64,000 nt of DNA from Pseudosulfitobacter sp. DSM 107133 (lineage in GTDB: Bacteria; Pseudomonadota; Alphaproteobacteria; Rhodobacterales; Rhodobacteraceae), in the NCBI RefSeq assembly GCF_022788695.1, contig NZ_CP085154.1, positions 2,790,001 to 2,854,000 on the forward strand, read 5' to 3'. The translations under genes were made by a program, and so were the position numbers. Positions within the stretch are counted from its first letter, which is position 1. Every line of letters begins with the position of its first letter. The notes below the pieces were generated by a model, which saw only the letters and a list, made by a program, of their open reading frames with translations, had not been told where the DNA came from and searched no databases. Shown piece after piece: positions 39,215-43,582 of the stretch.

Positions 39215-40060
39215 TCAAACCCCGTCGCGTACCATTTCGGCGGCGCTGCGTTCATAGTCCGACCACTCCACCGCCTGCGCTTTGGCACGCAGCAGCGCAG
39301 GGCGCATCGCCGCGTAAAGACCGGCATCGGCTTTTGCAATCGCTGCCAATATCTCGTCTTTGCTGGTGCAGACTATCATCGCGTCCGTGTCGAAATAGTC
39401 GGCCACATCCGGCGCGCCCCAATAGATCGGCACCGTTTCGCACAACAAGGCATCTACCAGCTTCTCGCTGAAATACCCCCCTGCCCGCATGTTCTCGATC
39501 ACCACCGAAAACCGGAATGGCGCCAGCCCTTCGTGCTTGTGCTCGAAGGGCGCATAGCCGCGCCCCATCAGCGTTACCCCCTGCGCCAGGGCGGCGACGT
39601 CGTGGCGCAATTTGTGCCCCTCCAGATCACGCCGGTTCGACGCAATCAGCGAAACCTCCTGGGTCTTGCTCAGATCCAGCGTCTCCCACTCTGGCACCCA
39701 AGTGCGCGCCGCTGCCAGAAACCGCGCATTCGGCGCGCCGCGCAACAGACCGGGATCATGGGTGAATATCCGGTGATAGCGCCAATGCGTCCAGCGCAGC
39801 AGCCGCAGGTGGCGTAAATGAATGGCGCGCGGCTCCACCACCATCACGCTGACCTGTGCAGCCACCCCGAAAGGGCGCAGATGCATCGCGGTCTTGGGGT
39901 AGACCAGCAGGTGATCCTGCGCCCCCAGATCCGCGACCGTGCCCTTGCTCAGGTGCGCCGGACGCCCGACAGGCCAGTGCAGCATGTCCAGCGGCAGATC
40001 AGCCACCCGCCGCCCGACGCCCTTGCCATAGGGCAGCACAGCGATTGCAGGATCAGTCAT
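39215..40060 (-). CDS. Glycosyltransferase family 10-like (fucosyltransferase fold) protein
   Basis: A 281-residue soluble protein. The C-terminal half carries the GT10 donor-binding pattern: FRFSVVIENMRAG, then GGYFSEKLVDALLCETVPIY and WGAPDVADYF. The N-terminal half is less conserved. GT10 enzymes transfer fucose or a related sugar; the actual sugar is unknown. No other polysaccharide genes are nearby. ATG 40058-40060 overlaps the phzF-like stop by eight bases, so the two are coupled. Confidence 0.8.
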   Translation of the reverse strand: MTDPAIAVLPYGKGVGRRVADLPLDMLHWPVGRPAHLSKGTVADLGAQDHLLVYPKTAMHLRPFGVAAQVSVMVVEPRAIHLRHLRLLRWTHWRYHRIFTHDPGLLRGAPNARFLAAARTWVPEWETLDLSKTQEVSLIASNRRDLEGHKLRHDVAALAQGVTLMGRGYAPFEHKHEGLAPFRFSVVIENMRAGGYFSEKLVDALLCETVPIYWGAPDVADYFDTDAMIVCTSKDEILAAIAKADAGLYAAMRPALLRAKAQAVEWSDYERSAAEMVRDGV

Positions 40061-40928
40061 CGCCAAGATCAAGCATCCCGGACATCAACACAAACCCCGC
40101 GCCCGCAACCTCGACGCCCGTGATCGCGTTGCGCGGCCCCAGCACCCGCACGTGTGCCTGTCCGGGGCGGCCCATTCCGTGCCCTTGCTCGGCAGTGAAC
40201 GTCGGCGTCTCGATCAGCCCCTGCCCCCACAGATAGGCTGCCATCGCGCCTGTGGCCGATCCGGTAAACGGGTCTTCGGACGGGCTGGGCGGGGCCATCA
40301 GCGACCGCGCGGCGGTGTCGCCTGCGGGCGTGAACCCTTCCAGCGTGCACCAGAACGGTTCCATCATGTCGATGTCAGTGCCCTGCGCCGCCGCCAGGTC
40401 GGCCAGGGCCTGAAGGTTCAACTGCACCCGCTCCAGCGTCGCCCGGTCTTTCAGAACAGTAATGACAAAGGGCAGACCGGTGCTGACCTGCTGGGGCGGG
40501 CTGACAATGTCATCCGCCGTCAAGCCCCCCACGGCCGCGACCAGCGCCGGATCGGCAAAACCACCGAATTGCGGCGCCACCTGCGTCATCGTCACATGGT
40601 TGCCCTGCACGTTCACCGGCACCAGCCCCGCACCGGTTTCCAGCACCAGCGGACCATCCGCGATCATCCCGCGCGCACGCATCGCGGCGACAGTGGCAAC
40701 GGTGGGATGCCCCGCAAAGGGAATCTCGCGGCTGGCCAGAAAATAGCGCACCCGCACATCGGCCACCTTTGACGGTCCGGTAAAGGTACACTCGACCAGA
40801 GATGTCTCGCGGACATAGGCCATGCAGGTTTCGCTGCCCAGCCCTGCGCCCTGATGCACCACGGCACAACCATTGCCACCAAAAGCACGGTCGGTGAACG
40901 CATCCACCCAGTCAAATTCATATGTCAT
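40053..40928 (-). CDS. PhzF family isomerase
   Basis: A 291-residue protein with the duplicated diaminopimelate-epimerase-like fold of PhzF. The N-terminal DWVDAFTDRAFGGNGCAVV, the catalytic Glu in TSLVECTF (about E46), PFAGHPTVATVAAM and DPFTGSATGAMAAYL are characteristic. In phenazine producers PhzF isomerises trans-2,3-dihydro-3-hydroxyanthranilate; isolated homologues have unknown substrates. Its start overlaps the stop of an upstream gene remnant (40925-41044). Confidence 0.9.
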   Translation of the reverse strand: MTYEFDWVDAFTDRAFGGNGCAVVHQGAGLGSETCMAYVRETSLVECTFTGPSKVADVRVRYFLASREIPFAGHPTVATVAAMRARGMIADGPLVLETGAGLVPVNVQGNHVTMTQVAPQFGGFADPALVAAVGGLTADDIVSPPQQVSTGLPFVITVLKDRATLERVQLNLQALADLAAAQGTDIDMMEPFWCTLEGFTPAGDTAARSLMAPPSPSEDPFTGSATGAMAAYLWGQGLIETPTFTAEQGHGMGRPGQAHVRVLGPRNAITGVEVAGAGFVLMSGMLDLGDD

Positions 40929-41084: not shown

Positions 41085-42602
41085 TTACGATGTCCCCATC
41101 GCCGCGCACAGAAACGGTTCCGGGCTGTCCACCTCTTCAAGCTTCTTGCCCTTGATCCACCAGAACCGATTGCCGACATTGCGCAGAAAGCTGCGGTCGT
41201 GACTGACCAGCAGGCAAGACGCGTCATGCGCAATCAGCTCGTCCTCCAGCGCTTCCTGTCCCTGGATATCAAGGTGGTTTGTCGGTTCGTCCAACAGGTA
41301 GAAATTCGGATTTTTCAGGCGCAGGACCAACATCGCCAGACGCGCCTTTTGTCCGCCAGACAATGCGCCAATCTTGGTATCCTGCATCTGTATCGCCACA
41401 CCCGCGCCCGCCAACACGCCGCGTGCGCGTTGATCACCGATGTCAAACTGCCCAGCGATTGCCGTCATGGGCGTGTCGCTGTCCGAAAGCTGGCTAAGAT
41501 GTTGATCGGAACAGGCCGGGACAATCGAAGGTGCACATTTCACCACGCTGTCACGGCCTTCGAATGCGTTTTGTATCAACTTGACCAGTTGCGTCTTTCC
41601 GGTGCCATTGGCCCCCAGCAACACAATCCGGTCGCCGGGAAGAATCCACTTTTGCCCCGTTTTGTACAAAACCCGGCCATCCGGCGTTTCGACCGCTATG
41701 TCATCCAATGTAACCAGCGCCTTTGCGTGAGTGCCGCTGTTTGCCAACGTGATGTCACCTGCGCTGCGATCCTGATGGGATGGCTTTGCCGCCGCCTCCA
41801 TCTGTGCTGCACGATCATTCAGTTGCCTGGTCTTGGTAACAAGCAGGTCCGAGCCGGAATTGATCCCGATATTCTTCAACTTCGCGGCCTGTTTGCGCAG
41901 CTGCTGTGCTTTGTTCAGATCGTTGGCAAAGCGCCGCTGGTCGGCAGCATCCGCTTCGTCCAGTGCCGCGCGGGCCGCCGAAAAAGCCAGCTGAAACACC
42001 CGCGACCGTTCGGCCCGCAAGAACAGCGTCCGGTTGGTTGTGGCATCCAGAAACGCCCGATCATGAGAGGTGATGACAACAGGCATATCGCGCGGCAGGC
42101 CGGCCAACCATTCCTGAAGCAATCCGATACGGTGCAGGTCCAGATGGTTCGTGGGTTCATCAAGCAGCAAAATATCGGGTTGCGTAATCCACGCAGCCGC
42201 CAACATCGCGGTGCGCTGCCATCCACCGCTCAGCGCGCTCAGGGGTTTGTGTTGCAACTCATAAGGGACACTCAGGTCGCCCAGCACCACATCCACACGC
42301 CAGCTTTCATATTCAGCTTGTTCAGCCGGAAGCGCGGCCAGCACCCAGTCGTAAAGGGTATGACCGTAGGCGTCCTGTGGAACGTTTTGCGGCACATATC
42401 CGGTTCGCAGACCGCGTGCGCGGATGATATCGCCGGTTGTCGGTTCACCGATCCCCGCCAGACACTCCAGAAGTGTCGTCTTCCCGCGCCCGTTTGCGGC
42501 GACCAGACCGACACGGTCACCCTTGGAAATGGTCAGGTTCAAGTCGTCAAAGAGAGGATCGCCAAGGACGACGCCCAAAGCGTTGATATTCAGAATTGTC
42601 AT
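41085..42602 (-). CDS. ABC-F family ATPase (possible ribosome-protection type)
   Basis: A 505-residue protein with two ABC domains and no membrane segments. First domain: Walker A AANGRGKTTL, signature LSGGWQRTAML, Walker B DILLLDEPTNHLDL. Second: Walker A LGANGTGKTQL, signature LSGGQKARLAML, Walker B YLLDEPTNHLD. The interdomain linker (~245-300) is charged and helical (ANDLNKAQQLRKQAAKLKN). ABC-F proteins act on the ribosomal E site; some give antibiotic resistance. The ~180-base leader has attenuator-like features (uORF 42692-42739, terminator-like hairpin 42621-42643), which points to a drug-inducible type. Confidence 0.88.
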   Translation of the reverse strand: MTILNINALGVVLGDPLFDDLNLTISKGDRVGLVAANGRGKTTLLECLAGIGEPTTGDIIRARGLRTGYVPQNVPQDAYGHTLYDWVLAALPAEQAEYESWRVDVVLGDLSVPYELQHKPLSALSGGWQRTAMLAAAWITQPDILLLDEPTNHLDLHRIGLLQEWLAGLPRDMPVVITSHDRAFLDATTNRTLFLRAERSRVFQLAFSAARAALDEADAADQRRFANDLNKAQQLRKQAAKLKNIGINSGSDLLVTKTRQLNDRAAQMEAAAKPSHQDRSAGDITLANSGTHAKALVTLDDIAVETPDGRVLYKTGQKWILPGDRIVLLGANGTGKTQLVKLIQNAFEGRDSVVKCAPSIVPACSDQHLSQLSDSDTPMTAIAGQFDIGDQRARGVLAGAGVAIQMQDTKIGALSGGQKARLAMLVLRLKNPNFYLLDEPTNHLDIQGQEALEDELIAHDASCLLVSHDRSFLRNVGNRFWWIKGKKLEEVDSPEPFLCAAMGTS

Positions 42603-42620
42603 AGGGGTCTCGGATCATAC

Positions 42621-42643
42621 AAAAGGATGCCGCAACGCGGCTA
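42621..42643 (-). terminator. Terminator-like hairpin just before the ABC-F start
   Basis: On the minus strand GCCGC-GTT-GCGGC is followed by ATCCTTTTG, 19 bases before the ATPase ATG. A terminator inside a leader is expected of an attenuator. Confidence 0.55.
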
Positions 42644-42676
42644 TGGGCGACCAATTGAGATGTATGTCTCGGGTCG

Positions 42677-42700
42677 GCCCTGCAAACGGATTTACAGGGC
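42677..42700 (-). promoter_or_regulatory. Hairpin GCCCTG-N12-CAGGGC over the leader ORF stop
   Basis: The left arm is formed by the last codons of the leader ORF and the loop contains its TAA. A ribosome stalled in the ORF would disrupt or mask it. Confidence 0.5.
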
Positions 42701-42739
42701 GAAGCGGGGACCATGCTGAAGTCGGCGGATGATACGCAT
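42692..42739 (-). CDS. Leader peptide MRIIRRLQHGPRFAL upstream of the ABC-F gene
   Basis: A 16-codon ORF on the ABC-F strand. GGGAGG lies 12 bases upstream of its ATG. The peptide has four Arg residues in 15, with an I-R-R-L segment like the basic stalling motifs of macrolide-type leader peptides. It ends 89 bases before the ATPase start. Very short, so confidence depends on the surrounding attenuator architecture. Confidence 0.5.
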   Translation of the reverse strand: MRIIRRLQHGPRFAL

Positions 42740-42778
42740 GTTCAGCTTGTGCCCTCCCATTGTAGATTGTGACCTTTG

Positions 42779-42809
42779 AAGTTTAGAAAACACAGTCCGT
42801 TTTCACAAG
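42779..42809 (-). promoter_or_regulatory. Putative sigma-70 promoter for the ABC-F leader
   Basis: On the minus strand TTGTGA, 17 bases, then TAAACT. The predicted start would give a leader of roughly 170 bases containing the short ORF and both hairpins. Confidence 0.4.
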
Positions 42810-42942
42810 CCCCCGATGAAAGGGCAGAGCTTTGGGCCGTGTTGCAGAGAGTTGTGATGTGGCGCGCGATCAAGTCCCGCGCTTCGTCCAGCGCCGCGAG
42901 GCCCGCAGGCTGCCGGCCTGCAAGGCCAGCAGCGCAGTTGTG
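42810..42942. other. Region between the ABC-F promoter and DUF1150 stop, no gene seen
   Basis: The DUF1150 frame continues open beyond its stop codon, but no start codon or ribosome site supports a separate gene. A GC-rich imperfect hairpin CTGCCGGCCTGCAAGGCCAGCAG (42907-42929) may end hsp20-DUF1150 transcription; it has no clear T-run. Confidence 0.4.
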
Positions 42943-43168: not shown

Positions 43169-43582
43169 TTACCCTTTCCGAATGCTGATGGTCTGGACGA
43201 CTGTTTCGGGTTTTGCCCGCGTCAGATCGACATGCAGCAGACCGTTTTCAATGATCGCCTCTCCAACCTCAACGCTGTCGGCCAGCACAAAGGTCCGTTG
43301 GAATTGTCGCGCGGCGATGCCACGGTGCAAAAACACCCTGCCCTCGCCGTCATCGGATTGCCGCCCGCGGATCACCAGCGTACGGTCCTCGACCGTGATT
43401 TGCAGATCGTCCTCGGCAAATCCGGCCACCGCAAGGGTGATACGATAGGAAAAATCGGATGTTTGTTCGATATTGAAAGGCGGATAGCCTTCGTTTCCGG
43501 ATTTCGCCGTGCGTTCCAGCAGGCGTTCCAGTTGCTCGAACCCCAACATATGCGGGTGCGAACCAAGGGTCATTTTCGTCAT
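43169..43582 (-). CDS. Hsp20/IbpA family small heat-shock protein
   Basis: A 137-residue holdase chaperone. The alpha-crystallin domain spans ~38-125 (YPPFNIEQTSDFSYRITLAV, ending with ENGLLHVDLTRAKPE). The N-terminal part, LGFEQLERLLERTAK, fits the IbpA subgroup. The ATG at 43580-43582 follows AAGGACGTGTCGCA. A sigma-32-like promoter lies about 68 bases upstream. Followed by DUF1150. Confidence 0.94.
   Translation of the reverse strand: MTKMTLGSHPHMLGFEQLERLLERTAKSGNEGYPPFNIEQTSDFSYRITLAVAGFAEDDLQITVEDRTLVIRGRQSDDGEGRVFLHRGIAARQFQRTFVLADSVEVGEAIIENGLLHVDLTRAKPETVVQTISIRKG

Follow-up and report, generated by a model that had tools for sequence, protein, structure and literature searches.

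Organization of the ABC-F Locus

We analyzed a 64,000-nucleotide stretch of the genome of Pseudosulfitobacter sp. DSM 107133 (contig NZ_CP085154.1, positions 2,790,001 to 2,854,000), referred to here as the window. On its minus strand, a gene for an ABC-F ATPase is preceded by a leader that holds a short open reading frame (ORF) and several segments able to pair with one another (Table 1). An initial annotation of this DNA had read the leader as the attenuator of a drug-inducible gene, and each element that it listed on the minus strand is found in the sequence where it had been placed. The 178-nt leader folds at -65 kcal/mol, compared to -48.9 (standard deviation 3.97) in shuffled versions, and beats all 200 of them (z -4.06; 0/200 as good). 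Given this z-score and the shuffle tests on helices 1:2 and 2:3 described below, we set chance hairpins aside. A known RNA family was likewise set aside as the identity of the leader, since Rfam gave 0 matches at gathering score in the window and, at a relaxed threshold across 42550-42850, a single chance-level match (E 6.3).

Table 1. Elements of the ABC-F locus, in window coordinates
Element	Position	Strand	Basis
Promoter-like TTGTGA-N17-TAAACT (TTGTGA 42808-42803, 17 bases, TAAACT 42785-42780)	42780..42808	minus	Read from sequence
GGGAGG, ribosome-binding site of the leader ORF	42753..42758	minus	Sequence and alignment columns
Leader ORF, 15 codons, MRIIRRLQHGPRFAL, then TAA	42692..42739	minus	Codon table of 85 leaders, synonymous bias
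Codons 10-12, Gly-Pro-Arg, proposed arrest core	42704..42712	minus	Residue counts, 85 leaders
Region 1, GCCCTG, 5' arm of hairpin A	42695..42700	minus	Pair counts, helix 1:2
Region 2, CAGGGC (42682-42677) plus CGACCCGAGA; partner region 1 or region 3	42667..42682	minus	Pair counts, 2x3 swap test
Region 3, TCTC-AATT-GGTC-GCCC; partner region 2 (ON) or region 4 (OFF)	42645..42660	minus	Pair counts, swap tests
Hairpin C, GCCGC-GTT-GCGGC (42641-42629), then ATCCTTTT; between regions 3 and 4	42629..42641	minus	
Region 4, GATCCGAGACC, resembles region 2; contains GAG, a weak match to a Shine-Dalgarno sequence for ABC-F (by eye)	42606..42616	minus	3x4 swap tests
ABC-F ATPase gene, 505 aa, ATG 42602-42600	41085..42602	minus	Pfam, NCBIfam, predicted fold

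The encoded protein matches Pfam ABC_tran in two stretches. Its predicted model (predicted local distance difference test, pLDDT, 88.8) has an ABC-F fold, the nearest solved chains are ABC-F proteins, and helices 207-249 and 252-272 between the two ABC domains provide the long helical linker of ABC-F ATPases. The best NCBIfam family is NF000355 (ribo_prot_ABC_F), at 280.7 bits, which lies under the curated cut-off of 380 and leaves the protein short of assignment to this resistance (ARE) family. Structures of ARE and housekeeping ABC-F proteins from the PDB give fold scores close together. Murina et al. name BAF2, BAF3 and PAF1 as candidate resistance groups (PMC6723617).

A Sample of 85 Related Leaders

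Relatives were drawn from 72 loci in genomes of named species, among which L079 and L080 are remote ABC matches only, and from 29 further loci in 295 genomes of the window's family, accepted at an ABC-F threshold of E <= 1e-100. These named relatives place the window in the class Alphaproteobacteria. L075 and L104 were dropped for too little upstream sequence. Of the 97 loci considered, 85 yielded distinct leaders with hairpin A, the window's own included; left out were L057 and L076 (match not N-terminal), L081, L082, L083 and L087 (duplicates), and L033, L060, L061, L062, L063 and L066 (hairpin A absent by the script's rule). The 85 comprise 59 close and 26 divergent leaders. Alignment A1 holds 58 of them, A2 holds 27 and A3 all 85, with L001 in both A1 and A2 and L028 in neither.

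The initial annotation had held that homologous leaders lacking the ORF and hairpins would speak against it. The outcome is favorable: the leader is present in 86 and absent in five of the 91 distinct loci whose upstream sequence was readable. L033 carries it after all (MRIVHRLQHGPHAVL; matched by the covariance model described below), and L060-L063 and L066 gave no covariance-model match. In the Kiloniella genomes (L060, L062, L063, L066), the ABC-F protein is 64% identical and comes without this leader.

Upstream signals are also shared. Most columns of the GGGAGG are invariant in A1 (58 sequences). The arrangement TTGnnn-N16-18-TAnnnT stands 5' of the leader ATG in 55 of the 59 close leaders, window included (shuffles expect 1.5), mostly at a distance of 72-76 nt. 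The promoter proposed earlier thus stands as a recurring arrangement, but it does not pass a consensus scan of the stretch, which found 0 promoters.

Selection on the Leader Peptide

The ORF of the 59 close leaders reads MRI-x-RRLQHGPR-x-AL with few changes, and the 26 divergent leaders retain the core alone. Across all 85, Gly10 is kept in 85, Pro11 in 84 and Arg or Val at position 12 in 83, the exceptions being G-T-F once and GPA once; in L033, which is not among the 85, His occupies position 12 (GPH). Gly10 is written with four codons and residue 12 with six (CGC, CGT, GTC, GTT, GTA and GTG), and therefore the constraint acts on the protein. Among single-base variants in codons 2-12 of the close set, 15/21 are synonymous (0.28 expected; p 5e-5). 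Together with the conserved GGGAGG, this substitution pattern argues for a short translated leader ORF with its own Shine-Dalgarno sequence and with selection on the peptide.

Residue 13, in contrast, takes at least nine amino acids across the 85 leaders. Because the core is kept with varied codons while residue 13 varies, selection acts on the peptide up to residue 12. The last two residues behave differently: Ala14 is GCC in 85/85, and where stem 1:2 is changed to GCCCCG/CGGGGC, in 3/85, the peptide changes from AL to AP, so that Ala14 and Leu15 belong to hairpin A. The simplest reading would be a nascent-chain stall that needs residues up to 12 and is indifferent to residue 13. Attenuation through Arg codons was set aside, as Arg residues 2, 5 and 6 are lost in divergent leaders.

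Mutually Exclusive RNA Structures

Helix 1:2, the hairpin A that spans the stop codon, is paired in 98.1% of 848 cells, with 20 cells changed on both sides, versus 2.5 in shuffles. Helix 2:3 is paired in 95.7% of 677 cells, with 14 double-changed cells, versus 6.3. For neither helix do any of 500 shuffles match the percentage paired, the number of double-changed cells or the covariation score; for helix 2:3, two other measures, how many pairs carry double changes and how many pair types occur, fall within the shuffle range (119 and 105 of 500). The two helices use the same GGGC and are mutually exclusive, and the first overlaps the leader ORF, as in an attenuator.

Region 4, just 5' of the ABC-F start, is like region 2 (TGACCnGAGA, by eye) and complementary to region 3. 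In a swap test, which asks whether a species' own partner pairs better than the partners of other species, own partners were better for regions 3 and 4 (z -6.5, 0/5000 permutations) and for regions 2 and 3 (z -7.6, 0/5000), whereas the control pairing of regions 2 and 4 had no preference (z -0.8, 1085/5000). The 3x4 test, without the 2x4 control, was repeated on 16 further loci, none of them in the training set, with region 3 sought in a 54-nt window, wider than in the 85-leader test; z was -2.75 (78/20000) and own partners exceeded the swap mean in 13/16. The pair GGTCT/AGACC is replaced wholesale in some lineages, for example by GTCTCATC with GATGAGAC in L165 and L144. For the relatives, this co-variation indicates that the ribosome-binding site (RBS) of the main gene would be sequestered in one conformation.

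Predicted accessibility of positions -13 to -5 averages 0.47 with a ribosome on region 1 and 0.37 with helix 1:2 formed, and is higher with the ribosome in 69/85 leaders; against a state in which region 2 is also blocked, it is higher in 60/85. An earlier run on -14 to +3 moved the mean from 0.43 to 0.47, up in 59/85, and as the -13 to -5 window was chosen after that run, the effect size is not to be leaned on. Two results weigh against an RBS switch: in the window's own sequence the accessibility is 0.60 versus 0.31 or 0.55, depending on the state assumed, which makes sequestration weak there, and L101 and L105 show no opening of the Shine-Dalgarno window. Because the effect depends on the assumed state in the window and is absent in these two leaders, co-variation supports the RNA switch better than energies do.

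Two structural observations stand beside these. In the rhizobial plasmid loci L161, L162, L164 and L166, the distance from region 3 to the ABC-F start exceeds that in the window's relatives by roughly 50-100 nt (by eye), and despite the longer spacing a match of 6-9 bases between regions 3 and 4 is retained. A third hairpin, GCTGAA/TTCAGC (42746-42715, minus strand), surrounds the leader start codon; in L088 (alignment A2) both of its arms are altered together, to GCAGAA/TTCTGC (by eye). It may control translation of the leader itself.

Distribution and Probable Mobility

The ABC-F gene is present in 32 of the 295 genomes of the window's family (E <= 1e-100). R1, a covariance model built from the 85 leaders, matched 33 of these genomes at E <= 0.01: all 32 with the gene plus G278 (L116), in which the leader precedes an ABC-F gene that has lost roughly residues 171-313 in an internal deletion. 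The matches lie directly 5' of the gene, with one exception: in G166 the contig that carries the leader is not the one that carries the gene, and adjacency is not visible. Since most of these genomes fed R1, the matches follow partly by construction, and the independent part is the lack of a match in the other 262.

Among 385 genomes of the class, there were 10 R1 matches, all within the 15 genomes that have the gene, and 8/10 lie outside the training set. The many-genome searches used strict filters by which weak matches are lost; of the five genomes with the gene and no match, L143 and L145 (f56) reached E < 1e-3 in a small search, and L140, L151 and L152 gave no match even there. In 398 genomes of the phylum, counted without a breakdown of the share from outside the class, all 25 matches fall in the same family or class. 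Of these, 24 lie before an ABC-F gene or, in G733 (L180/L191), before a remnant of which only the C-terminal part is left; the other, in G939 (E 0.0015), is in a genome without ABC-F and is probably a chance match. Outside the training set the core reads GPV, GPI, GPD or GPR, with single cases of GSV (L143) and QPV (L147). Families with a match beside the gene are f1, f34, f70, f93, f107, f116, f145, f155, f171 and f174. The reading in the initial annotation is supported in part: in a marine-type alphaproteobacterium, ABC-F is preceded by an attenuator that would work by ribosome stalling and whose leader peptide is conserved and translated.

Plasmids carry the gene as well, in 12 records of which 6 are typed as conjugative, and the leader was present in 6/6 of the records fetched from these 12. 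Of six genes adjoining ABC-F in the window, none was found at a distance of up to about 3 kb from it in 70 related loci (positive control L001). The patchy presence, the plasmids and the lack of fixed neighbors suit an accessory gene that can be transferred better than they suit a housekeeping gene. Near the locus in the window are an Hsp20-family, IbpA-like small heat-shock gene, 5' of ABC-F on the same strand (43169-43582, minus) and not found near ABC-F in the 70 related loci, and a gene (39215-40072, minus) whose protein matches glycosyltransferase family 10 below threshold (20.8 bits against a cut-off of 23.9).

A Model for Translational Attenuation

We interpret the leader as a real, conserved ribosome-stall attenuator that is tied to one ABC-F group in Alphaproteobacteria and most likely acts on translation. 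This interpretation draws on features that emerge from sequence comparison: a translated core, two mutually exclusive hairpins, regions 3 and 4 that co-vary, and a close association with ABC-F. Without inducer, ribosomes would complete the leader ORF and hairpin 1:2 would form, leaving region 3 free to pair with region 4 and hide the ABC-F RBS. With inducer, a ribosome would stall with Gly-Pro-(Arg/Val) at the peptidyl transferase center and its P site on codon 11 or 12. Region 1 would then lie under the ribosome's footprint, 2:3 would pair, and region 4 and the ABC-F start site would be freed. The stall, its position, its effect on ABC-F synthesis and the inducer are what we infer from these patterns. 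We assign a probability of about 0.7 to this model, an erm-like, ribosome-controlled translational attenuator of an accessory ABC-F gene in which a stall at Gly-Pro-(Arg/Val) frees the RBS.

The initial annotation had instead taken hairpin C for the terminator that a stalled ribosome would prevent. The ABC-F attenuators msrD and vmlR use terminators (PMC10314930; PMC9226507). Hairpin C with the ATCCTTTT after it does register as a terminator-like site, with 2 such sites in the scanned stretch versus a mean of 0.9 in shuffles, and the window's own tail has 5 T in 9 bases. However, only 21/85 leaders, the window among them, have at least 5 T in 9 bases after the hairpin, and 18/85 have a run of at least 4 T, where the script takes the best hairpin, found none in 3 leaders and took another hairpin in some divergent ones. 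A G+C-rich hairpin with a T-run is not, then, conserved in the relatives. Consensus folds of 58 leaders form hairpin C with and without region 1 available and contain no conserved pairing that would prevent it, and regions 3 and 4 match at a distance of roughly 100 nt in the loci from rhizobial plasmids (by eye). Because the T-rich tail is so poorly conserved, we reject hairpin C as a general terminator and conclude that transcription attenuation is not the general mechanism; it may contribute in this strain. As an account of the leader family it is improbable, and regions 2, 3 and 4 point to RBS release.

Two further explanations differ in the trigger. The leader could sense slow Gly-Pro elongation in the absence of drug, for example low elongation factor P (EF-P) activity or low charged tRNA, with ABC-F relieving the stalls. 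At the coding level no residues are more constant than Gly10 and Pro11, and the E. coli ABC-F protein EttA is reported to work via ribosome pausing (PMC11282234), both of which would suit this idea, but the peptide has a single proline, its Arg residues are not kept beyond the close set, and a gene that is patchy, plasmid-borne and without conserved neighbors is unlike a housekeeping rescue factor; we regard this explanation as quite unlikely. Alternatively, any stall in the leader, caused by many drug classes, might open the RBS, as in E. coli toiL, where several classes are sensed via stalls at different sites (PMC12121999). The geometry here would permit stalls at several codons, yet the strict Gly-Pro-(Arg/Val) beside a free residue 13 argues for one preferred stall site, and we consider a generic sensor of this kind unlikely.

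Under our model of translational attenuation by a stall at the core, the inducer is most likely a macrolide-like compound, that is, a drug of the exit tunnel or peptidyl transferase center whose action depends on peptide context. On ABC-F leaders, the stalls reported for lincosamide, streptogramin A and pleuromutilin drugs occur at the start codon or close to it (PMC9226507; PMC12421871), whereas the core here lies deep in the ORF, at codons 10-12, which suggests a drug that acts in a manner dependent on the nascent chain. The motifs favored by erythromycin and azithromycin are (R/K)x(R/K) and xPx (PMC13410324; PMC13148051). Arg-Thr-Arg-Gly-Pro-Val, present in 8 of the 26 divergent leaders (counted in the alignment), holds both motifs, and Pro at the stall fits the permissive xPx. 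Since any proline satisfies xPx and the fold comparison does not favor a macrolide-type ABC-F, both of which count against it, a macrolide is only the leading guess. The ABC-F protein would act against the inducing drug.

A broader proposal is that these leaders form a previously undescribed drug-sensing arrest-peptide family, with Gly-Pro-(Val/Arg) and an indifferent A-site codon, that travels together with one ABC-F, as a self-contained and inducible ribosome-protection cassette, across at least ten families of Alphaproteobacteria. We offer this tentatively, at somewhat less than even odds. If true, it would reveal a tunnel- or peptidyl transferase center-directed inhibitor to which these marine and soil bacteria are naturally exposed. 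As the leader of an uncharacterized alphaproteobacterial ABC-F, a conserved arrest peptide would directly report the drugs that these ecologically important bacteria sense, and would add a compact new arrest core, Gly-Pro-Val/Arg.

Comparison with Known Attenuators

Control of ABC-F genes by leader attenuators is already known, and the inducible ABC-F genes in the literature we consulted are Gram-positive. Searches of open-access literature and of Rfam did not turn up this leader family. A close parallel is ermC, where erythromycin stalls a ribosome on the short leader ORF ErmCL, which remodels the mRNA and frees the RBS of the resistance gene (PMC10219788). Here, the peptide is unrelated, the core is Gly-Pro-(Arg/Val), the target is an ABC-F gene and the hosts are Alphaproteobacteria. 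In toiL-topAI of E. coli, a ribosome stalled on an upstream ORF likewise opens a downstream RBS (PMC12121999), but the target is a toxin-antitoxin operon, and the paper's text mentions no proline motif ('proline' occurs 0 times).

Among ABC-F genes, msrD also follows a stall-controlled leader peptide, MsrDL (MYLIFM; PMC10314930). It uses an intrinsic terminator, whereas the family described here lacks a conserved one, probably switches at the RBS and has an unrelated peptide. The vmlR, tiaA and are5sc genes, with leaders MIN, MVGDDDISG and MLV, are under ribosome-mediated attenuation as well; vmlR also has a hairpin that sequesters the Shine-Dalgarno sequence, and tiaA seems to be translationally regulated (PMC9226507; PMC12421871). 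Their leaders stall at or near the start codon, in contrast to the constant residues of this family, which occupy codons 10-12 of 15 or more.
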